Part shown: piece after piece, positions 4,319-12,773 of the stretch
Position numbering within the stretch: position 1 is the first letter of the stretch
Layout: the number at the start of each line of letters is the position of its first letter
IMG/VR virus record: IMGVR_UViG_3300030382_004707
Span: 1 to 22,911 of that record
Direction: 5' to 3' (one strand)
Source of the DNA: a virus
Length of the DNA: 22,911 nt
Notes under the pieces: generated by a model
The model's database searches: none
Told to the model about the DNA's origin: nothing
What the model saw: only the letters and a program-made list of their open reading frames with translations
Translations under genes and position numbers: made by a program

Positions 4319-5722
4319 TTATAGAGCCAGGCCAGTTACAATCGCGTTAGCACCAGGACGTGTGCAAACACAGTCGTAGTACCACTTCATGAAACCTTCC
4401 CAAGCGTCAGCATTAGCAACGCGAGAGAGGACTGAACCATCTAGATCCGCAAATTCTGCAGAGGAAAGCTCGCACATCTTCCAGGTTTTGGTACTCAGAT
4501 GAATAACCAAACCGTTGTCGACGTGACGTGACACTTTCACCGGGACGCCAGCATAACTGAAGCCAGTGAAACCACCGTCGCCTTTAACTCCTGTAGTACG
4601 CGAAGACGTATCCATCGCGATATTGCCAACCAGAAGAGCAGCCATTCTAGAACGCTGCGCAGGATTAACCAACAGGTAATCCGGAGCTTCCTCACTGCCA
4701 TTGGCAGCCAGAGCAATAATATCGGTTACTGCCTGGAAATGCCGATCAAGGGACATTGCCGTACGTGCCAGTGGCGCGGCCGCAGTCGTTGTCGTAAGGA
4801 ATTGCGCGCGCAACGTTGCGTTAGCAACTAATGCGCGATTAAGACCAAAGTGAACGCCTGAAGCCAGGTTGCTGTAAATGCCAGAAGGCTCAACATCCGT
4901 GATCGCAATTGCACCGGCAACTGTCGGATCAGCTTCAAGAGCTAGAGGCAAGAACTGTCCTGCCGGGCCCTGCGTTGTGGGAAAACCAGCAGCCGCGGCG
5001 AGGCCTCGGACTGTCAGCTCGATCTGGCCAGCCGGCAGGCCGCCTGGGACGGCGTGAAGCTGTACAGTGGTAGGAACGTCAGTGATTTCCCATACAGTAC
5101 CCGCGTTTGAATCAGCATACGTATCCAAACGACGCACCAGGAAGCTTCCGTTACCTGCGAGTACGGCGGTCTGAATGTCCGCAGCTGCTTGGATATCACC
5201 GTCGAATAGGACAGTGGTTGCAGCTCCGGCGAGGATCGGACCTGCGACACCGTGAGTGGAAATAAATCCTTTCACGCGTCGACCAGAAGTCGCAGCACGG
5301 TTTGACCGGTTCCGAACATCATCTTTAAGACGAGTCATCTCCGCATCAACGTAACCAACAAAGCTGTTAGCAGAGCCTTTCCCGGCCGCGGCAATTGCCG
5401 GACCAGTAATAGCAAATTTGCCATATAGGAACGCAGCCGTAACAATAAGGTTTGCGTAGAACTGCTGGGGTGCACCAGCTCCGACAGGCGCTGCGACGGG
5501 GGCACCAGGCATAGCCTGACCCTCACCGACAAAGCCAACGTCTGCGTTACGTCCGACATGGACTGGAATAAACACATGACGACCATTCCAGTCGACAGAT
5601 GCCTTCTCCATTAGTTCGACCACGAGGGTCTCCTGATTAAGTGTTTCCTGGATTGAACCCAGGTAGAATTCTTTAAGTATTGACGATAGCGTTCCCGCTC
5701 CCGCTCCATATGTAGCAGCCAT
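4319..5722 (-). CDS. Major capsid protein
   Basis: A 467-residue protein expected to form the icosahedral head shell. The opening (GTLSSILKEFYLGSIQETLN, then ETLVVELMEKASVDWNGRHV) and the following IPVHVGRNADVGFVGEG match the N-arm and early core of HK97-fold capsid proteins common in environmental phages. It is followed by a long variable Ala/Gly-rich central domain and a C-terminal part containing LLVNPAQRSRMAALL and YAGVPVKVSRHVDNGL, the usual late-capsid layout of a ligand or spine region plus beta strands. The strong site AAGGAGGAAATAAAT before the ATG indicates high translation. It follows the scaffold gene by 36 bases, as expected for co-expressed head genes. Codon positions are more GC-rich than in its neighbours, consistent with high expression. 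It is complete, with no frameshift. Confidence 0.88.
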   Translation of the reverse strand: MAATYGAGAGTLSSILKEFYLGSIQETLNQETLVVELMEKASVDWNGRHVFIPVHVGRNADVGFVGEGQAMPGAPVAAPVGAGAPQQFYANLIVTAAFLYGKFAITGPAIAAAGKGSANSFVGYVDAEMTRLKDDVRNRSNRAATSGRRVKGFISTHGVAGPILAGAATTVLFDGDIQAAADIQTAVLAGNGSFLVRRLDTYADSNAGTVWEITDVPTTVQLHAVPGGLPAGQIELTVRGLAAAAGFPTTQGPAGQFLPLALEADPTVAGAIAITDVEPSGIYSNLASGVHFGLNRALVANATLRAQFLTTTTAAAPLARTAMSLDRHFQAVTDIIALAANGSEEAPDYLLVNPAQRSRMAALLVGNIAMDTSSRTTGVKGDGGFTGFSYAGVPVKVSRHVDNGLVIHLSTKTWKMCELSSAEFADLDGSVLSRVANADAWEGFMKWYYDCVCTRPGANAIVTGLAL

Positions 5723-5758
5723 ATTTATTTCCTCCTTGTGTTGTTAATTTTTAATGGT

Positions 5759-6583
5759 TTAAACATTAAACTGCTTGTTTCCTTTCATAAAGGACAGTAG
5801 TGCTTTCTTCGCATCTTTCATTGTATGGGGCGCTTTACTATCATGACCGGCATTGCGTGTGTTAACACTAGATCCTGCTGATCTACCACGTGGGGCAGCT
5901 GCAGGTGTTTGCTTGCCATTCTCGTTTATATAACGGTTAACGGCTCCTTCTTCGATTGAGGAGACATAAGTGTTATAGTTTTCAGCGACATCCATTACAT
6001 TGATATCTGGTTTCTGCACAACGGCTTGCAATAGAAGGTTTCTTGGAACGTTTGGATATTTATCAATTGCTGATGCGATTTCTTTGTTGAGTTCGACAGT
6101 TGCTTGCTGAACTTCAAACTTGTACAATCTATCTTCTAGATTTTGGTATTTACCTTGATCAGAATAAGAAGGAGTGGGATCATCAGACAAAAGATCATCT
6201 AACCATTGGTCGTTAGAATCTTCTGTTGCCGCAACAGCAGGAGAAGGGTTTGTTCTTAATTGCTGCAATTGTTCTTCCATATGAGAAATTCTAGATTGAT
6301 AATCTGAAACCTCATTTTTATATTTATTGCGAGCATCAAGGACCGATTTGAATCGTTTATACGGGACACGGTGTTTAGAACCGTTATCTTCGAACTCCTC
6401 TGATTGCATGTCAGCATTATCATTTACGTCATTATCTGCGTTTGACGAATTGCTTGAAGACTGTGCTTCAATAACGGGTTCATTGGCCCGGGGTGTTGAA
6501 TCGGCAGAAGCTTCATCAACGGTTGTGGGGTTGGCATCCATTACGGATTGCATTCTCTCAATTGCGTCTGGGTCTAATAGCAT
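5759..6583 (-). CDS. Capsid scaffolding protein
   Basis: A 274-residue, acidic, largely disordered or helical protein just upstream of the capsid gene. After an Asp/Ser/Asn-rich N-terminus it has the signature HRVPYKRFKSVLDARNKYKN (about residues 71-90), followed by a coiled coil (SDYQSRISHMEEQLQQLR), an arrangement common in phage scaffold proteins. The C-terminus is basic (PHTMKDAKKALLSFMKGNKQ), fitting the capsid-binding end of scaffolds. The ribosome-binding site is AAAGGAGAATGTAAA. A sigma70-like promoter lies about 57-86 bases upstream, so scaffold and capsid can be made from their own transcript. There is no protease motif, so maturation by a separate protease is not shown in this window. 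Confidence 0.82.
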   Translation of the reverse strand: MLLDPDAIERMQSVMDANPTTVDEASADSTPRANEPVIEAQSSSNSSNADNDVNDNADMQSEEFEDNGSKHRVPYKRFKSVLDARNKYKNEVSDYQSRISHMEEQLQQLRTNPSPAVAATEDSNDQWLDDLLSDDPTPSYSDQGKYQNLEDRLYKFEVQQATVELNKEIASAIDKYPNVPRNLLLQAVVQKPDINVMDVAENYNTYVSSIEEGAVNRYINENGKQTPAAAPRGRSAGSSVNTRNAGHDSKAPHTMKDAKKALLSFMKGNKQFNV

Positions 6584-6639
6584 TTTACATTCTCCTTTGA
6601 ATGGGTTAAACAGGTTTGAAAGGTCCTGAAACTTTCTAT

Positions 6640-6669
6640 AGTATATAGTGCTTTGTTGTTACATTTCAA
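6640..6669 (-). promoter_or_regulatory. Putative sigma70 promoter for scaffold and capsid genes
   Basis: On the minus strand TTGAAA (6669-6664) and TATACT (6645-6640) are separated by 18 bases; each differs from consensus at one position. The predicted transcript would start near 6633, about 50 bases before the scaffold ATG. It lies in the only sizeable gap between the terminase and scaffold genes. Start-site position is an inference. Confidence 0.45.
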
Positions 6670-6675
6670 TAGTTT

Positions 6676-8283
6676 CTATATCATCGATGGGCATATATCA
6701 TCAAATTGCAATCCTAGAGCATCGACAGGATCGTGGAAGCTGTCTATGTTCTTGGAGTATAATGTGCCGGTTGCTGCTTCATACTCCAGCATCTCTTTAA
6801 CGTTAGCTGGTTTTTCTTTTCTTTTCTTCTCTTCGACATAAGCTGCAGTTTGATCTAAACCGATAAGTGCCAGGCCTGTGGCCATAACCAAATCATCGTG
6901 TTTGCCTTTGTCTGCTTCTGGCTTTCCTTTATCGTTATATACGAAAGAATTCATCTCATTGGCCAGGCGTGGGCAGGATGGGTTTAACCATCCTTTGGCG
7001 ATGTGCTCATGAAGCCTTGATAAAAGAACTGGGCGGCTTTGCTTTGTTGTTGCGAATCCAATCTTTTCGATCCATTTGTTGCCGATCTTGTCATAAGAAG
7101 TACGACGATACATACTAATATTACCATGGTGCTGAAGATCTTCAATGATTGCTTGTCCATAGCTGTTACTCTCTATTACTGTTAAAGGATCATATTGATT
7201 AATAATTGTTTTAAGATCCTCGGCATATTCTTTAAGGCTTACTCTATTATAATATGTTGCAACCACACGTACGTGTTTCTCATCGGTTGTATCCAACAAT
7301 GTTGCAGCTGAATAATCTCCGTTGGGTGTTCCTGATGCGACGTCGACACCCATTATGTATGTGCGATATTTGCTGGGTTTAATATATATAATCCAGCCCT
7401 TTGTATCGTTTTCGGTCTGGGCATAGACTGTCTTGAAGAAAGGCTTTCCTGATGTAATAAATGCTATATCAGCCTCAATTGGATACTCTTGTGAGAAAGA
7501 GTCGATATTGCCAGCGCATTTAATACGAAGTGTTTGAATCATCCAGTTGAATTGGGATGATGACATTATATCGTTATAAGTTTCTCTATATGTATTTTCA
7601 ACGTTATTGAGGTTCTTGGCTTTCTTATTAAGTATATACTCTTCACCGTCCAACCAACTAATAAACAATTTCTCAAAGCCATCGTTCTTGTACCAGAGGT
7701 TTTGAGCATCATTAATACCGTTTGCTGTTGTCTCCAGGAATATCTCTGCGTCAGGTGTTGCTGTTTGGAATACAGATTGAATTGTTTTCTCTATATTCTC
7801 GTAGAAAGCAAACTCACTAACATGCAGGGAATTGTATGTTGAGCCTCGGAATGATTGTGAAGAAGAAGAACCTACTCTAATATAGCCCCCGTGGAAGAAG
7901 GTCAACTCGTATTTGTTGGAAGCTTCTGTTTTAAAACGAAGAAAAGGTGGCAAGGAATTATAATATTGTTTATAAATCTCAAAGATTGAGGCTGCAGCTT
8001 CTCTTGTGTGGGCAATGACGGCTGTCTTATGATTTGGTGTGAATAAAGTCTTATGGAATAGTTTAGCAGCGATGATGGTTGTTAAGCCTAGCTGCCTGGC
8101 TTTCAATACGTATACCCAGGGGTTTGCTTCTGCTGTGGCCAAGAACTTAAGTTGAGCTTTGTTTGGCTTTAAGCTTATCTGTTTGGCTTCTTTTGTGATT
8201 ATCTTAAGATATTTTTCACAGAAGTAAATGAAATCATTCTGACATTTACGAAGTTCAACGGTGTGTTGCTTGGTGAGCTTCAT
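6676..8283 (-). CDS. Terminase large subunit (ATPase-nuclease)
   Basis: A 535-residue DNA packaging motor protein that should bind the portal, hydrolyse ATP to pump DNA and cut concatemers. Visible motifs: a variant Walker A at residues 61-69 (KARQLGLTT), a Walker B-like hydrophobic strand with acidic residue at 153-160 (LHVSEFAF, Glu157), a coupling motif around 183-190 (LETTANGI), and an RNase H-like nuclease with Asp314 (MGVDVASGTPNGDY), Glu371 (VIESNSYG) and Asp463/Asp464 (KHDDLVMATG). All key residues are present. Length is normal for the family. The start ATG follows directly on the TAA of a short acidic reading frame, whose GAAGAAGAAG stretch serves as a purine-rich ribosome-binding region. 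No intein or frameshift is seen. Confidence 0.92.
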   Translation of the reverse strand: MKLTKQHTVELRKCQNDFIYFCEKYLKIITKEAKQISLKPNKAQLKFLATAEANPWVYVLKARQLGLTTIIAAKLFHKTLFTPNHKTAVIAHTREAAASIFEIYKQYYNSLPPFLRFKTEASNKYELTFFHGGYIRVGSSSSQSFRGSTYNSLHVSEFAFYENIEKTIQSVFQTATPDAEIFLETTANGINDAQNLWYKNDGFEKLFISWLDGEEYILNKKAKNLNNVENTYRETYNDIMSSSQFNWMIQTLRIKCAGNIDSFSQEYPIEADIAFITSGKPFFKTVYAQTENDTKGWIIYIKPSKYRTYIMGVDVASGTPNGDYSAATLLDTTDEKHVRVVATYYNRVSLKEYAEDLKTIINQYDPLTVIESNSYGQAIIEDLQHHGNISMYRRTSYDKIGNKWIEKIGFATTKQSRPVLLSRLHEHIAKGWLNPSCPRLANEMNSFVYNDKGKPEADKGKHDDLVMATGLALIGLDQTAAYVEEKKRKEKPANVKEMLEYEAATGTLYSKNIDSFHDPVDALGLQFDDICPSMI

Positions 8284-8424
8284 TTATTCGTCTTCTTCTT
8301 CTTCGTAAAGGTCTATTATAATGATATGGTCTTCTTTCTCTTCATGCTTTTCTTCGCTCTTGTCACGAACATCTTCCCTCCAATAAGGAATGGGTAGCAG
8401 CATATGCAATTGGTTATTCGTCAT
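8284..8424 (-). CDS. Short acidic protein before terminase, 46 residues
   Basis: An open frame from ATG 8424-8422 (alternative ATG at 8403) to TAA 8286-8284, which is directly followed by the terminase ATG. It overlaps the last 11 bases of the 83-residue gene upstream. The peptide starts MTNNQLHMLLPIPYWRED and ends in an acidic run (LYEEEEDE), with IIII before it. No clear Shine-Dalgarno site precedes either start, so translation would depend on coupling. Part of the acidic end may simply reflect the GA-rich ribosome-binding tract of terminase. The tight junctions on both sides argue for a real gene, but the evidence is limited. Confidence 0.42.
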   Translation of the reverse strand: MTNNQLHMLLPIPYWREDVRDKSEEKHEEKEDHIIIIDLYEEEEDE

Positions 8425-8665
8425 TGCGAGTTAGGATATCCAGTATGTTTTGTTCATATGATCCACTATCATCATTCCTGATAATATCAGACAGCAGCCT
8501 TAAGGCTTCCAGCTTTAACTTGCCTCGGACTGCATATGCTCCTTCATCATTTGGTGTCTCCATGATGAGCTGAAGGATAAGCTGCTTGAGGTCTGTGTTC
8601 TGTACATCTTCTGTTGGGAGGGCAGCGATGATAGAATGAAGGGTTCTTTTAGTTTTCTTTGTCAT
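8414..8665 (-). CDS. Small helical protein upstream of terminase, 83 residues
   Basis: A protein with basic N-terminus (MTKKTKRTLHSIIAALP) and predicted helices (LKQLILQLIMETP, LKLEALRLLSDIIRN). It sits where a small terminase subunit is often found, just before the large subunit, and a central helix region followed by an acidic tail would be compatible with that. However, it is short for a small terminase and has no obvious helix-turn-helix, so the function is not assigned. Only a weak ribosome-binding site is seen, and the gene follows a 28-residue membrane peptide by 25 bases. The gene itself is supported by lack of other candidates in the interval and by its tight packing. Confidence 0.65.
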   Translation of the reverse strand: MTKKTKRTLHSIIAALPTEDVQNTDLKQLILQLIMETPNDEGAYAVRGKLKLEALRLLSDIIRNDDSGSYEQNILDILTRNDE

Positions 8666-8690
8666 ACGACAATAGCATACCTATAAATTA

Positions 8691-8777
8691 TTATTTTCTG
8701 AACCAATATCTTAAGACAAACAGTGTGCTGATATTCAATATCAGTAAAAACGTTAATAATAAAAAGTCCTCCACCAT
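8691..8777 (-). CDS. Tiny membrane peptide, 28 residues
   Basis: An open frame from ATG 8777-8775 to TAA 8693-8691, starting 5 bases after the stop of the 177-residue gene and ending 25 bases before the next ATG. The sequence begins MVEDFLLLTFLLILNIS and ends LRYWFRK: an acidic start, about 18 hydrophobic residues and a basic end, the profile of a single-span membrane peptide with its C-terminus in the cytoplasm. The ribosome-binding site is weak (AAGGAT about 17 bases upstream), so coupling to the gene before it is likely. It fills the only gap between two genes. Function unknown. Confidence 0.5.
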   Translation of the reverse strand: MVEDFLLLTFLLILNISTLFVLRYWFRK

Positions 8778-8782
8778 ATAAG

Positions 8783-9316
8783 TTAATCTTTAATCCTTAT
8801 GAACGTGTCTGATATAAGGGATAGTTTAACTTTTATTTCTTTTGTTGTTAAGGCCTCGACCTTTTTCAACTCCGTCAAGCTTAACTCACCAGCGTAGTAT
8901 AAAGCATATGTGGATCCATACTTGTCCTTGATTATCTCCAGAAGTTCTTTGGCAAAGAAGATCTTCTCTGGATTATAAAAATCTGATGTGAGACTTTCCT
9001 GGACATCCTCAATTGTTTCACCAGCATGAAGTTCAATCATATGGGTTCTGATAAAATGTTTTAAAGCATACCAAAGCCATTGACGGTTGATTACTGCTTC
9101 TTTACCTTTTATATCATCCAGCAACAATCGCTCTATACAGTAATTAATTGCGTCATCCAAGGCATCGTATTGCTGAATGACTCCTAACATCTTTTTAATT
9201 GATGGTGCCTTTCCGTGTGCCAATAGTAGTGATTTAATGCATCCTGGATGGACACACAAGGCTGAACTATCGAAGTGTTGGTAAATGCTTCCATGATGTT
9301 TACAAGGTTTTTTCAC
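8783..9316 (-). CDS. Hypothetical protein with Cys/His N-terminus and HTH-like C-terminus
   Basis: A 177-residue protein. The N-terminal 30 residues hold Cys5, His7, His8, Cys21, His23 and Cys26 (CVHPGC), which could bind a metal ion. A helical middle follows. The C-terminal 50 residues (FAKELLEIIKDKYGS, then GELSLTELKKVEALTTKEIK) have the spacing of a sigma-like or helix-turn-helix DNA-binding unit: a helix, a turn at the short gap after GELS, and a second helix. It could be a small terminase subunit or a phage transcription regulator; neither can be chosen from sequence alone. Its ATG overlaps the TGA of the preceding gene (ATGA), showing coupled translation. Confidence 0.65.
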   Translation of the reverse strand: MKKPCKHHGSIYQHFDSSALCVHPGCIKSLLLAHGKAPSIKKMLGVIQQYDALDDAINYCIERLLLDDIKGKEAVINRQWLWYALKHFIRTHMIELHAGETIEDVQESLTSDFYNPEKIFFAKELLEIIKDKYGSTYALYYAGELSLTELKKVEALTTKEIKVKLSLISDTFIRIKD

Positions 9317-9888
9317 CCACAGTAGTTCCTTCTCTGTGAGGCCCTTTCTTTCTTTGACGTCTCTTCTGAAAGAACAATATGGAATGTTGTAATAAAATCT
9401 AATGTCTCTCGAACAAAAGCTTTGATTGCTCCATTCTTTGTGCTCTTGGATTTGAAGAGCTTTTCTCTATGTGGTTCTATACGTTCCATATAGGTATTGA
9501 TAACCTTCTTGCTGGCGCGGTGCTTGGGGTTTAATGATGCATCGTGATATGGTTCCAGAAGTGAAGCTGCTGTTGCGCACTCATCGTGGGCAATAACAAA
9601 CAAGCCTTTAACTGCATCTACTGGTTTAATACCATGGCGTTTTTGGCCTATCCCTTCATACCAAACTACATCAAGAGCCAATTTAATTTGTGTTAAAATC
9701 TCTGTAAGATATCGCTCGATGATCTCTTTTGGCATAATATCTGTCTTTCCAGTTTTGACGTCAACATACTCTGCGAGAGTATATTCGTGCTCTTCTTTTG
9801 GTGTCTTGGAACCTGGAAGTATCTCTCGTGAATGCAATTCAATCTGTTGGGCGATAACTTCTGGTTCTATAGTTTTATCTTTATTCAT
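9313..9888 (-). CDS. Hypothetical helical protein, 191 residues
   Basis: I do not recognise this protein. It is mostly helical with mixed charge; the middle segment (YLTEILTQIKLALDVVWYEG) is an amphipathic helix, and the C-terminus is basic and ends RRNYCG. It is placed in a run of small genes leading to terminase and is joined to both neighbours by stop/start overlaps (TAATG at 9888, ATGA at 9313). This suggests the three proteins are needed together, perhaps for DNA packaging initiation or regulation of late genes. No enzymatic motif, membrane span or signal peptide is visible. Confidence 0.65.
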   Translation of the reverse strand: MNKDKTIEPEVIAQQIELHSREILPGSKTPKEEHEYTLAEYVDVKTGKTDIMPKEIIERYLTEILTQIKLALDVVWYEGIGQKRHGIKPVDAVKGLFVIAHDECATAASLLEPYHDASLNPKHRASKKVINTYMERIEPHREKLFKSKSTKNGAIKAFVRETLDFITTFHIVLSEETSKKERASQRRNYCG

Positions 9889-10154
9889 TAGCCTCGTTCC
9901 CTTTCAACACGAAGATTGATGTTATGTAGCTTGCTTGCTACAGAAAACAGACCGTATCTTCTGGAGTTGATCTCTGATTCAAACAGAATTGCTTCAATGA
10001 ACTGCTCTCTGCTTAAGTCAACTTCTGTTGAAAGCTTCTTAAGATAGGCTTCTGTCTTGGGATGAAGCTTCTGTTTAACTTCAACTTCAATTACCTTATC
10101 GATATATTTAATTTCTGTGAGTGGTGTACTCTTTACTGATTTCTTCTTTGACAT
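9888..10154 (-). CDS. Small basic protein, possible ribbon-helix-helix fold
   Basis: An 88-residue protein with a Lys/Ser-rich N-terminus and the pattern of a beta strand (KVIEVEVKQKL), a helix (TEAYLKKLSTEV) and a second helix (SREQFIEAILFESE). This is the order found in ribbon-helix-helix DNA-binding proteins; the match is by pattern only and is weak. A clear ribosome-binding site (TTAAGGAGAATATATA) precedes the ATG. Its stop overlaps the start of the 191-residue gene by one base. A regulator of the late or early genes is a reasonable guess, not a demonstrated role. Confidence 0.62.
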   Translation of the reverse strand: MSKKKSVKSTPLTEIKYIDKVIEVEVKQKLHPKTEAYLKKLSTEVDLSREQFIEAILFESEINSRRYGLFSVASKLHNINLRVERERG

Positions 10155-10166
10155 TATATATTCTCC

Positions 10167-10652
10167 TTAATTATATATGTTTATTATCTGGTTGGGTGCA
10201 ACTGATTTCATCAACTTAATTATAGCTGATTCTATGTTTCTTGCTTCTCTTTTTGTTTTAACCTCAGCCAAAACCTCATACTCTAAGTCTTCGAAACTAT
10301 AATCAGTGGTCTCTATTACGTGGTGGTATAAAGAACATCCAACGTTGTTTCTATGACACTCTACTCTCTTCTCTATAAGCAAGCTTGTTTGTCCAATATA
10401 TACTTGATTGTCTGGAGTATATATTGCATATACAGTTGAATTATCCTTCTTTATATTAAGTTTGTGGTAATTCTTATGATAATCTGGATTCTTCTTTAAC
10501 CATTTTTTATAGTAAGCTGGCCTGTGGCCCCATCTTGCTTTATAGCATTCCTTGCAATGACATGAAATGTATTTCTTATTCTTCCCGATCTTATAATAAT
10601 CAGTCGTTTCCTTCTCTATCTTGCAAGTCTTGCATGTCTTCATCTTCTTCAT
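10167..10652 (-). CDS. GIY-YIG endonuclease with N-terminal zinc ribbon
   Basis: A 161-residue protein. Residues 7-36 hold a zinc ribbon (Cys7, Cys10, Cys33, Cys36; Cys31 nearby). Residues 74 onward form a GIY-YIG nuclease: AIY at 76-78 (Gly replaced by Ala), YIG at 85-87, the catalytic Arg in LLIEKRVECH (Arg96) and the metal-binding Glu in ARNIESAII (Glu141), with Asn near the end. The key catalytic residues are present, so it is likely active. Proteins of this kind in phages are often free-standing homing endonucleases that cut an allele lacking them; others act in DNA repair. The ribosome-binding site is AGGAG about 9 bases upstream. Its first 53 bases overlap the 74-residue gene in another frame, which is unusual for the window. 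Confidence 0.83.
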   Translation of the reverse strand: MKKMKTCKTCKIEKETTDYYKIGKNKKYISCHCKECYKARWGHRPAYYKKWLKKNPDYHKNYHKLNIKKDNSTVYAIYTPDNQVYIGQTSLLIEKRVECHRNNVGCSLYHHVIETTDYSFEDLEYEVLAEVKTKREARNIESAIIKLMKSVAPNQIINIYN

Positions 10653-10824
10653 TTAAGTAATCTCCTATACATAAGTGATACTCAAGGTTTTTAATACGAA
10701 GATTGAAAGTGTCTATTTCATTAATTATATTATTAACTGAAATTTCTAACTCGGCTAACTGAACATTAATTTTGGGTGGTAGTGGATCTAATGAGCCTTT
10801 AACTGCGAACTTTAAGTCTTTCAT
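10600..10824 (-). CDS. Small coiled-coil protein with acidic tail, 74 residues
   Basis: The first gene of the left-hand minus-strand block. After a Pro-containing start (SLDPLPPKINVQLAEL) it has a helix with heptad-like hydrophobic spacing (about residues 22-50) and an acidic end (LNEEDEDMQDLQDREGND). An excellent ribosome-binding site (AAGGAGGCAAT) precedes the ATG, so the start is firm. Its last 53 bases overlap the start of the GIY-YIG gene in a different frame. I recognise no family. It lies directly after the control region and should be transcribed first. Confidence 0.6.
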   Translation of the reverse strand: MKDLKFAVKGSLDPLPPKINVQLAELEISVNNIINEIDTFNLRIKNLEYHLCIGDYLNEEDEDMQDLQDREGND

Positions 10825-10946
10825 ATTGCCTCCTTGGGTTACATATATAATTAGTTTCTGAAAAATCCAAAAGAAGATATTATTTTATTTTTATTTAAAA
10901 GATCTATTAATAATATAAGAACTGAACATTGCTAATGAAACTGAAT

Positions 10947-10986
10947 AAAAAAGACTCTGAAATAGATATTAATCTATAACAGAGTC
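10947..10986 (-). terminator. Intrinsic terminator or attenuator upstream of the 74-residue gene
   Basis: On the minus strand GACTCTG pairs with CAGAGTC and, inside it, ATAGAT pairs with ATCTAT around a four-base loop; the two stems are parted by an AA/AA internal loop (10953-10986, 34 bases). Six T follow at once (10952-10947). It lies downstream of the two minus-strand promoters and before the 74-residue gene, so it may end a short RNA or attenuate read-through into the operon. The stem is only modestly GC-rich. Confidence 0.6.
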
Positions 10987-11015
10987 CAAAACAAAATAAA
11001 AGGAGATTTATTTAA

Positions 11016-11045
11016 ATGTCAGAGACTTATTCAGTCTCATTATAA
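11016..11045 (+). other. Nine-codon mini reading frame with ribosome-binding site and internal hairpin
   Basis: A frame ATG TCA GAG ACT ... TTA TAA (MSETYSVSL) preceded by AAAAGGAGA, with 10 bases from GGAG to ATG. Its codons include an inverted repeat GAGACT (11022-11027) and AGTCTC (11033-11038). This looks like a leader peptide, but no plus-strand promoter or attenuated gene is evident close by, so it may be chance. Confidence 0.25.
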
Positions 11046-11156
11046 TTACTATATATAAGATAAAACTCTTAATATTAATACAAATAATTCAATATATTCT
11101 ATGTTATCTGATAGAACTAGTAATAAATTAAGATAGTATATTAAAGAACACAATTG

Positions 11157-11185
11157 ATTATATCATATATCCAGAACATTAACAA
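11157..11185 (-). promoter_or_regulatory. Minus-strand sigma70-type promoter, inner
   Basis: TTGTTA (11185-11180) and a perfect TATAAT (11162-11157) are spaced by 17 bases on the minus strand; TG one base before TATAAT adds an extended -10 element. Transcription would start near 11150 and meet the hairpin-T6 element about 200 bases on. In such AT-rich DNA a chance match is possible. Confidence 0.45.
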
Positions 11186-11359
11186 GTATTAATTTAATAT
11201 ATGCTGAATAAAGTACAATTATTATATATAACTCTTATATCCAACACTGTAAGTTTACTCTTTATATTATTAACTTTAAGTGATCTTAAGATCTTCTAAT
11301 AACTAATAAGTAATTCTATTTGTTAATTGGTTGTTCTTTATATTAAGAGTGTCTTTCAG

Positions 11360-11385
11360 TATATTACATTGTCCATTGTAATATA
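11360..11385. promoter_or_regulatory. Operator-like palindrome over the promoter -10 box
   Basis: TATATTACA (11360-11368) and TGTAATATA (11377-11385) are perfect 9-base inverted arms with an 8-base centre. The palindrome spans the -10 box and predicted start site of the outer minus-strand promoter, the usual place for a repressor dimer site. An RNA hairpin at the 5' end is the alternative. No second copy of the site was found in the window. Confidence 0.5.
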
Positions 11386-11403
11386 TTCTAACTCACTTGT
11401 CAA
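11375..11403 (-). promoter_or_regulatory. Minus-strand consensus promoter, outer
   Basis: A perfect TTGACA (11403-11398) is followed after exactly 17 bases by TACAAT (11380-11375), one base from consensus. This is the best promoter in the window. Its -10 box lies within the operator-like palindrome at 11360-11385. Transcription would start near 11368, leftward, with no open frame before the terminator-like hairpin at 10986-10953. Confidence 0.62.
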
Positions 11404-11548
11404 CATTTATTATTAATAATATCAATTATAATTAGTATGAAATATCTCAACAGCAATTATATTTTATAAGTCCTCAATATTATTCAGTATTTATTTTCTA
11501 TAGTAGACTCTGGTATTTCAGTTATTATAGTTATTAAAGGAGGTTTTT

Positions 11549-11656
11549 ATGTATGGTGGTCCAGCTCGTGGGTATCGTCGTTATCCATGGGATGATAAGT
11601 TAGATTTTGCAGCTGCAGTCTGGTTCTGGGGCTTAATAATTTACTCATGTATATAA
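11549..11656 (+). CDS. Small membrane peptide, 35 residues
   Basis: A short gene with the strongest ribosome-binding site in the plus-strand island (AAAGGAGGTTTTT, then ATG at 11549). It begins MYGGPARGYRRYPWDDKLDF and continues into an aromatic, hydrophobic segment (AAAVWFWGLIIYSCI) that can span or enter the membrane, giving a basic N-terminus and membrane C-terminus. It is the first gene of the plus-strand island, 75 bases before the zinc-ribbon gene. The function is unknown; small membrane peptides of phages can act in superinfection exclusion, host modulation or lysis, and nothing here selects among these. Confidence 0.6.
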   Translation: MYGGPARGYRRYPWDDKLDFAAAVWFWGLIIYSCI

Positions 11657-11731
11657 TTAATTTAAATCTTCCGTTGGGATTTCTGAAATCTATTTATTAG
11701 TGGTGGTAGTGTTGATCAAGGAAGTTACAAT

Positions 11732-12028
11732 ATGCAAATTATGAAGGATTGCAAACGCTGTTTTAAAACTCAAGATATCACAGAGTTTAGCAAAAATAAA
11801 TTAACCAAGGACGGCAGATCCTACTATTGTAAGGAATGTGCCAAAGTACATAATAAAAAAGGTATGTATACAGCAGCTGCAGCGAAAGAGGCAGCCAGAA
11901 TGAGATCGTATGGTAGGTGGGCCATGGATCATCTAGAATGGCTGGAAGAGTTTGATAAAGAGCATGGATTGAAAGGTAGGAAAGGTGGTTTCTTACCCAA
12001 TGAATATTTCAAGGAGGAAATAGAGTGA
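11732..12028 (+). CDS. Zinc-ribbon protein, 98 residues
   Basis: Residues 7-36 form a CX2C-X22-CX2C zinc ribbon (Cys7, Cys10, Cys33, Cys36; CKRCFKTQDITEFSKNK, then YYCKECAKVH). This ribbon is usual at the N-terminus of phage HNH or GIY-YIG endonucleases, yet no nuclease motif follows: the rest is a helix (AAAAKEAARMRSYGRW) and a Glu/Lys-rich end. It may be a DNA-binding protein or a reduced homing endonuclease. AAGGAAG lies 8 bases before the ATG; a second ATG three codons on is possible. The end overlaps the GTG start of the next gene by four bases. Confidence 0.72.
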   Translation: MQIMKDCKRCFKTQDITEFSKNKLTKDGRSYYCKECAKVHNKKGMYTAAAAKEAARMRSYGRWAMDHLEWLEEFDKEHGLKGRKGGFLPNEYFKEEIE

Positions 12029-12222
12029 GCAAGAGACGTTTTAATAATTTCGAAAACCGGTTTGTAGATGCATTGGATAGAAGAATGAATAATCCAATTG
12101 AGTATACAGATCGTATGAAACAAGAAGAGGATGAATTTTATGCTGAATTAGATAAATATTATCATCTTCAAGATCTTCGTTTAGCTAAAGAGAAAGATGA
12201 TACGAAGGTGTATTCAGTATAA
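12025..12222 (+). CDS. Hypothetical charged protein, 65 residues
   Basis: A short, highly charged helical protein (MSKRRFNNFENRFVDALDRR, then EEDEFYAELDKYYHLQDLRL). The start is a GTG, chosen because AAGGAGGAAATAGA is placed ideally before it and the gene overlaps the previous TGA (GTGA). It ends two bases before the methyltransferase ATG, so all three genes are likely cotranslated. I recognise no family and no motif. Confidence 0.62.
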   Translation: MSKRRFNNFENRFVDALDRRMNNPIEYTDRMKQEEDEFYAELDKYYHLQDLRLAKEKDDTKVYSV

Positions 12223-12224
12223 CC

Positions 12225-12773
12225 ATGGAAGGTATATACAAAAAGTATGATATCATCTATGCTGACCCTCCGTGGAAATACAACAAGAGGGTAGGTAAAA
12301 AGAAGACTAGATTCGGTGGTGGTGCTGATGCCCACTATCCGATGATGGATCTTCAGGACATAATGAACTTACCAGTTGCTAATATAGCAGCAGACAACTG
12401 TGCTTTGTTTCTTTGGACTACCTTCCCTTACTTGAATGAACAAATAAAAGTTATTGAAGCATGGGGATTTACCTATAGGACACTAGGGTTCAGCTGGATC
12501 AAAACAAATAAAAAAAATAACCAACCCTTTTTCGGGGTTGGCTACTACGCTAAATCAAATTGTGAAGTTTGTTTGTTGGGTGTGAAGGGTAAGATGAAAC
12601 CTGTATCCAATAAAGTTTCTTCAGTCATTATCTCTCCACTAGAAAGACACAGTAAGAAACCTGATTGTGTCAGGGATAGGATCGTAGAATTATTTGGGGA
12701 TATTCCAAGAATAGAATTGTTTGCCAGAGAAACGGCAAAAGGTTGGGATCATTGGGGTAATGAAGTTGTATAA
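12225..12773 (+). CDS. MT-A70 family adenine-N6 DNA methyltransferase
   Basis: A 182-residue enzyme expected to transfer a methyl group from S-adenosylmethionine to the N6 amino group of adenine in DNA. The catalytic DPPW motif is at residues 14-17 (YDIIYADPPWKYN). It continues with typical family blocks: ALFLWTTFPYLNEQIKVIE, WGFTYRTLGFSWIKTN, GYYAKSNCEVCLLGVKG, and the AdoMet-site end KPDCVRDRIVELFGD with IELFARETAKGWDHWGNEV. All are intact and the length is normal for small phage members. It probably modifies phage DNA to evade host restriction or marks it for regulation; the target sequence is not deducible. The minus-strand terminator at 12506-12541 lies inside its coding sequence. Confidence 0.93.
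   Translation: MEGIYKKYDIIYADPPWKYNKRVGKKKTRFGGGADAHYPMMDLQDIMNLPVANIAADNCALFLWTTFPYLNEQIKVIEAWGFTYRTLGFSWIKTNKKNNQPFFGVGYYAKSNCEVCLLGVKGKMKPVSNKVSSVIISPLERHSKKPDCVRDRIVELFGDIPRIELFARETAKGWDHWGNEVV
12506..12541 (-). terminator. Intrinsic terminator inside the methyltransferase gene
   Basis: On the minus strand CCAACCC (12541-12535) pairs with GGGTTGG (12527-12521) around a seven-base loop (CGAAAAA); TTATTTTTTTTATTTG follows. The stem is GC-rich and the T-run long, a canonical Rho-independent terminator. It lies 290 bases beyond the last gene of the right-hand minus-strand block, so it can end that transcript from within the convergent gene. Confidence 0.72.

Follow-up and report, generated by a model that had tools for sequence, protein, structure and literature searches.

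A 724-bp non-coding gap in the viral DNA analysed here (hereafter the window, the whole 22,911-nt stretch of IMG/VR record IMGVR_UViG_3300030382_004707) carries two predicted σ70-type promoters, P1 and P2, followed on the same strand by a predicted intrinsic terminator and then by a leftward operon of morphogenesis genes (Table 1). Short RNAs are probably made from this gap and end at position 10947, and we tentatively favor the possibility that the P1 and P2 RNAs serve mainly as an attenuated leader for the operon. As a transcription unit predicted from sequence the gap is well supported; we infer what it does, as well as that it is transcribed, that termination there depends on conditions and what would relieve it. 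The initial annotation of this DNA had proposed either a short RNA or a leader controlled by antitermination. The promoters, the lack of a gene, the terminator and the operon fit both proposals, and to that extent the annotation stands, with no firm choice between the two.

The same phage is represented by another record, IMGVR_UViG_3300008050_007069 (L019; 24,843 bases), which begins at window position 12146, passes the right end of the window, continues through ~9.0-9.4 kb of new sequence and re-enters at window position 1. As read from this arrangement, the window and L019 are circular permutations of one ~32 kb phage. L019 terminates within the capsid gene and lacks window positions 5033-12145, and the gap at 10825-11548 is therefore known from one copy only. 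The extra 9.0 kb (L019:168-9212) contains leftward genes that are apparently structural.

Gene direction in the phage is almost entirely leftward, with the exception of the short rightward cluster to the right of the gap. The leftward genes from 10824 to 931 start with the 74-aa gene, for which a search found no relatives, and a homing-type endonuclease gene, and they include those for terminase, scaffold, capsid and portal. The 161-aa protein encoded at 10167-10652 (−) has a start of the HNH/endonuclease VII zinc-finger type and a GIY-YIG-like end (VYAIYTPDNQVYIGQT), and is probably a free-standing homing-type endonuclease. By eye, the 177-aa protein encoded at 8783-9316 (−), whose homolog in the relative L010 is 31% identical, resembles an ECF sigma factor. 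Its AlphaFold model was poor (pLDDT 59) and gave no significant structural match, and we rejected it as a sigma factor; sigma factors do recur among its non-significant Foldseek matches (best 3mzy, E 1.9). The phage proteins searched included none recognisable as a polymerase, primase, integrase or repressor, and a search of GTDB genomes with the terminase alignment found no host.

The gap separates divergent gene blocks, is 79% A+T (21% GC) and is the only large non-coding stretch of the window, the runner-up being 225 bp long. On its minus strand no frame is longer than 34 aa and no start codon is preceded by a ribosome site, in agreement with the earlier claim that no gene-sized frame precedes the hairpin. 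The sole ribosome site plus start codon within the gap belongs to the nine-codon frame MSETYSVSL on the plus strand. The third-best promoter of the window, at 10703-10731 (+), lies inside the 74-aa gene and is aimed rightward at this frame, and the two might possibly make up a rightward leader peptide.

Both leftward promoters occur at exactly the positions at which the initial annotation had placed them. A plain consensus scan found 10 promoter matches in the gap where 10.3 ± 3.0 were expected; this count shows no excess, and the promoter claim therefore needed a better test, for which we used a σ70 weight matrix. With this matrix P2 ranked first and P1 second in the whole window, and both scored above every site in L019. 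A same-strand pair as good as P1 and P2 together arose in one of 1500 dinucleotide shuffles of the gap, and a single site as good as either one arose in 5.6% of shuffles, such that each is only mildly unusual alone. An operator-like dyad over the P1 −10 element (11359-11386) was discarded, 77 of 200 shuffles having one equally good; a search of IMG/VR for the exact dyad pattern found none. On reading, TAATATACT, a candidate −10-like pause element within the early transcribed bases, stands 8 nt past the −10 element of P1 and 13 nt past that of P2, such letters being common at 21% GC.

The hairpin with six T at 10986-10947 that the annotation had described was likewise confirmed. The hairpin itself (10986-10953, with T6 at 10952-10947) has 8 + 6 bp with a 2 × 2 internal loop, because of which a simple terminator scan missed it, and a predicted free energy of −17.9 kcal/mol. 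No terminator-like site elsewhere in the window is as stable, nor did any of 160 shuffles produce one of this stability. The calculated RNA sizes of about 423 and 204 nt are close to the ~420 and ~200 nt first predicted, and the predicted RNA end lies 123 nt short of the start of the 74-aa gene (10824). From 10947 to the capsid gene the scan found no leftward terminator of comparable strength, and read-through would therefore feed the morphogenesis genes. To the right, the hairpin at 12545-12517 would stop transcripts of the right-hand leftward operon short of the gap. That operon apparently ends at this hairpin, after running into the rightward MT-A70 methyltransferase gene.

Table 1. Sequence features in and around the non-coding gap; promoters, transcripts, folds and frames are predictions.
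Feature	Position	Strand	Description
74-aa gene	10600..10824	−	AAGGAGG at 10835-10829; first gene of leftward operon
Weak promoter-like site	10882..10910	−	TTAATA-17-TAAAAT; 9/12, score 10.0; downstream of terminator
110-nt element	10933..11042	−	17-bp closing stem (11042-11026 with 10949-10933) enclosing hairpin B and terminator; predicted fold
Intrinsic terminator	10947..10986	−	GACTCTG-TT-ATAGAT-TAAT-ATCTAT-TT-CAGAGTC then TTTTTT
Predicted P2 RNA	11150-10947	−	about 204 nt
Predicted P1 RNA	10947..11369	−	about 423 nt, untranslated
Hairpin B	10990..11020	−	loop UCUCCU (11006-11001), complementary to the phage's AAGGAGA-type ribosome sites
AAGGAGA ribosome site and 9-codon frame MSETYSVSL	10999..11045	+	ATG at 11016; overlaps hairpin 11022-11038
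P2	11157..11185	−	TTGTTA (11185-11180), 17 nt with TG, TATAAT (11162-11157); 10/12; predicted start near 11150
P1	11375..11403	−	TTGACA (11403-11398), 17 nt, TACAAT (11380-11375); 11/12; predicted start near 11369
Promoter-like site before 35-aa frame	11504-11531		weak
First rightward frame, 35 aa	11549..11656	+	AAAGGAGG ahead; right edge of gap
Rightward cluster	11549-12773	+	35-aa frame, zinc-finger protein, 65-aa frame, MT-A70 methyltransferase
Second terminator-like hairpin	12517-12545	−	−15.4 kcal/mol, T7; antisense inside MT-A70 gene

If the RNAs do act as an attenuated leader, host RNA polymerase carrying its main sigma factor would initiate at P1 and P2 and would mostly halt at the hairpin and T6, giving RNAs of ~420 and ~205 nt. 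The strong promoter would always be on, and the operon, from the 74-aa gene to the terminase, scaffold, capsid and portal genes, would be reached only past the terminator, whether by means of a phage factor, host Nus factors or simple leakage. A 17-bp stem could then fold around the terminator in read-through RNA and would label the 5′ end of that RNA for cleavage or protection. No antiterminator gene was recognised by Pfam, PHROGs or NCBIfam, although the majority of the proteins here have no match to any family. Read-through might not be needed for the operon, because the weak promoter-like site at 10910-10882 separates the terminator from the 74-aa gene, and this site is possibly that gene's own promoter.

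Folding predictions single out the 110-nt element as the most over-structured part of the sequence scanned (z −8.4; rank 1 of 2074 windows scanned). Most of this excess structure comes from the terminator, which alone gives z −7.9, and the leader minus the terminator has no excess fold relative to shuffles (z −0.5 to −1.0). The 17-bp closing stem taken singly is not rare, being present in 17 of 300 shuffles. It needs the polymerase to read 15 nt further and would form in read-through RNA only; because its 3′ half is made after the T-run, it cannot affect the termination decision. Where the stems depart from Watson-Crick pairing, a minus-strand RNA has G-U and a plus-strand RNA would instead have A-C, weak evidence that agrees with a leftward RNA. 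We rejected an antiterminator fold within the leader: in folds of partial transcripts the 5′ arm of the terminator pairs briefly with the leader, and the full terminator wins.

Alternatively, the 205- or 420-nt RNA might itself be the product, a trans-acting small RNA whose hairpin B loop pairs with ribosome sites of the phage or its host. We consider this unlikely. The UCUCCU loop is indeed complementary to AAGGAGA-type ribosome sites of several phage genes, but the match was found after the fact and the loop letters spell an AAGGAGA ribosome site on the plus strand. The best predicted duplex involves the start region of the gene at 9888-10154 (z −3.6, with a median of −0.5 over 24 genes). 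Small RNAs typically have strong promoters and a strong terminator, whereas the structure is not conserved in the loci searched and has no excess fold beyond the terminator. It is highly improbable that the 110-nt element represents a novel type of cis-acting RNA switch in phages, in which a read-through stem round the terminator and the UCUCCU loop would let one RNA both gate the operon and repress ribosome sites in trans.

Searches for relatives of the element returned the window alone. Nothing in Rfam (release 15) reached the gathering score, the best relaxed match being a microRNA model (E 3.2), and DNA comparisons of the gap among near and distant phages gave only short A+T-rich chance matches. 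Looking for other copies of the gap via the terminase, capsid, MT-A70 methyltransferase, 191-aa, 74-aa and zinc-finger proteins recovered contigs of the same phage, of which only the window spans the gap. A covariance model of the 110-nt element, run against 41 sources (40 other loci), likewise matched the window only; a weak match in L042 (E 0.7), with many pairs broken, was rejected as a homolog. Because this model rests on one sequence, a diverged homolog would escape it. The conserved secondary structure in related phages that the initial annotation had suggested seeking was not found, and the contigs of most relatives stop short of this position.

Terminase and capsid searches identified a family at about 40-50% identity. 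The distant relative G001 (26.7 kb) keeps homologs on either side (81-aa g12828 and 191-aa g9313), and its syntenic gap of 464 bp has its own leftward terminator (−15.7 kcal/mol, then at least 8 T). This terminator is the best leftward one of its 10-kb stretch and lies ~90 nt before a leftward 370-aa gene; the best promoter ahead of it is at chance level, with 20% of shuffles doing as well. A terminator thus recurs at this place, ahead of the left operon, in G001, and the RNA itself was not seen to do so. A 58-aa protein of G001 (L020:2161-2337, −) matches ribosomal protein S21 (Pfam PF01165, E 3e-7). Distant relatives have consensus σ70-like sites ahead of genes in the same block (e.g. L010:1911, L010:2008 and L005:513), and the lineage therefore plausibly uses host-type promoters and a host-type sigma factor. 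Near-identical promoters are repeated before small early-type genes at L010:1911-2060, L010:2396-2450 and L005:513-560, with the pattern ACAACC..AAC, then GTTATAAT or GTTATACT, then GTAT.AGAAGTTAG.

The G001 arrangement bears on the idea that the hairpin is an inherited operon-boundary terminator, keeping leftward transcription of the right-hand genes out of the left operon, with the 74-aa gene using the site at 10910-10882 and P1 and P2 incidental or yielding only a by-product. All G001 genes point leftward, and a terminator at the syntenic position there would simply end the upstream operon; it is followed by an extended −10-like promoter (L020 1761), and the window has a like order of terminator, weak promoter and gene. 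In the window, however, the terminator at 12545-12517 already blocks such traffic, and the two strongest promoters immediately precede the hairpin on its own strand. We therefore regard a mere boundary function as doubtful.

In phage T7, the primary replication origin has tandem promoters before an A+T-rich stretch. It is conceivable, but improbable, that the gap is likewise an origin, which P1 and P2 RNAs would open or at which they would prime synthesis. Its standing as the only large non-coding gap of the window would suit an origin, as would a local turn in cumulative GC skew near 11.45 kb and the fourfold presence of TTATTCAG. Against this, the region 10825-11548 has no DnaA-box-like site at one mismatch or fewer, the skew turn coincides with the change in gene direction and no replication gene was recognised in the phage. 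The TTATTCAG repeats are marginal (6% of shuffles) and were rejected as iterons. Also highly improbable is that there is no working unit and that promoter-like and hairpin sequences arose by chance in A+T-rich DNA: the simple consensus count equals shuffled expectation but the matrix scores, the terminator score and their order are far outside the shuffles.

Were the attenuated-leader reading true, the gap would provide a concrete, testable control point for the morphogenesis genes of a nearly unannotated uncultured phage lineage and would mark a place to seek a new antiterminator.

A promoter-leader-terminator unit in a phage is ordinary in itself. Control of an operon by a promoter, a terminator and antitermination is established for phage Q proteins (PMC6606751), which act on terminated leaders ahead of phage late genes (PMC6606751; PMC4825925), and for the prophage RNA IsrK (PMC4825925), and comparable antitermination logic has been reported for a gene-transfer-agent cluster (PMC11150451). 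By its layout, the predicted unit is of this known kind of phage control, and the individual element matches nothing in Rfam or the loci searched; we class it by that layout and not as a member of the Q-dependent family.

In arrangement the gap resembles the lambdoid late leader pR′-tR′ with its Q antitermination, in which a strong σ70 promoter, an untranslated RNA of about 200 nt and an intrinsic terminator precede the late, or morphogenesis, operon. The gap similarly has a σ70 promoter and an intrinsic terminator within a few hundred nt of each other, with no gene between them and the terminase, capsid and portal genes behind. Unlike lambda, it has two tandem promoters, a read-through stem round the terminator and no recognised Q-like gene. 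With Gifsy-1 IsrK, a small RNA that doubles as leader of a read-through message, it shares one phage promoter serving a terminated short RNA and a possible read-through message, but it lacks an orf45-like small frame right behind the terminator, and its downstream gene is unrelated.

At lambda tI/sib, a terminator sits inside a larger stem that only read-through allows to form. The predicted fold here similarly places the terminator hairpin within a longer stem that becomes possible only once polymerase has passed it, a stem that 17 of 300 shuffles also have; unlike tI/sib, the element precedes rather than follows the genes on which it could act. Finally, the Caulobacter gene-transfer-agent cluster (terGTA, GafZ) also has its morphogenesis genes behind a terminator, but that terminator, located past the first gene, consists of a set of GC-rich repeats, and the antiterminator, GafZ, is known.
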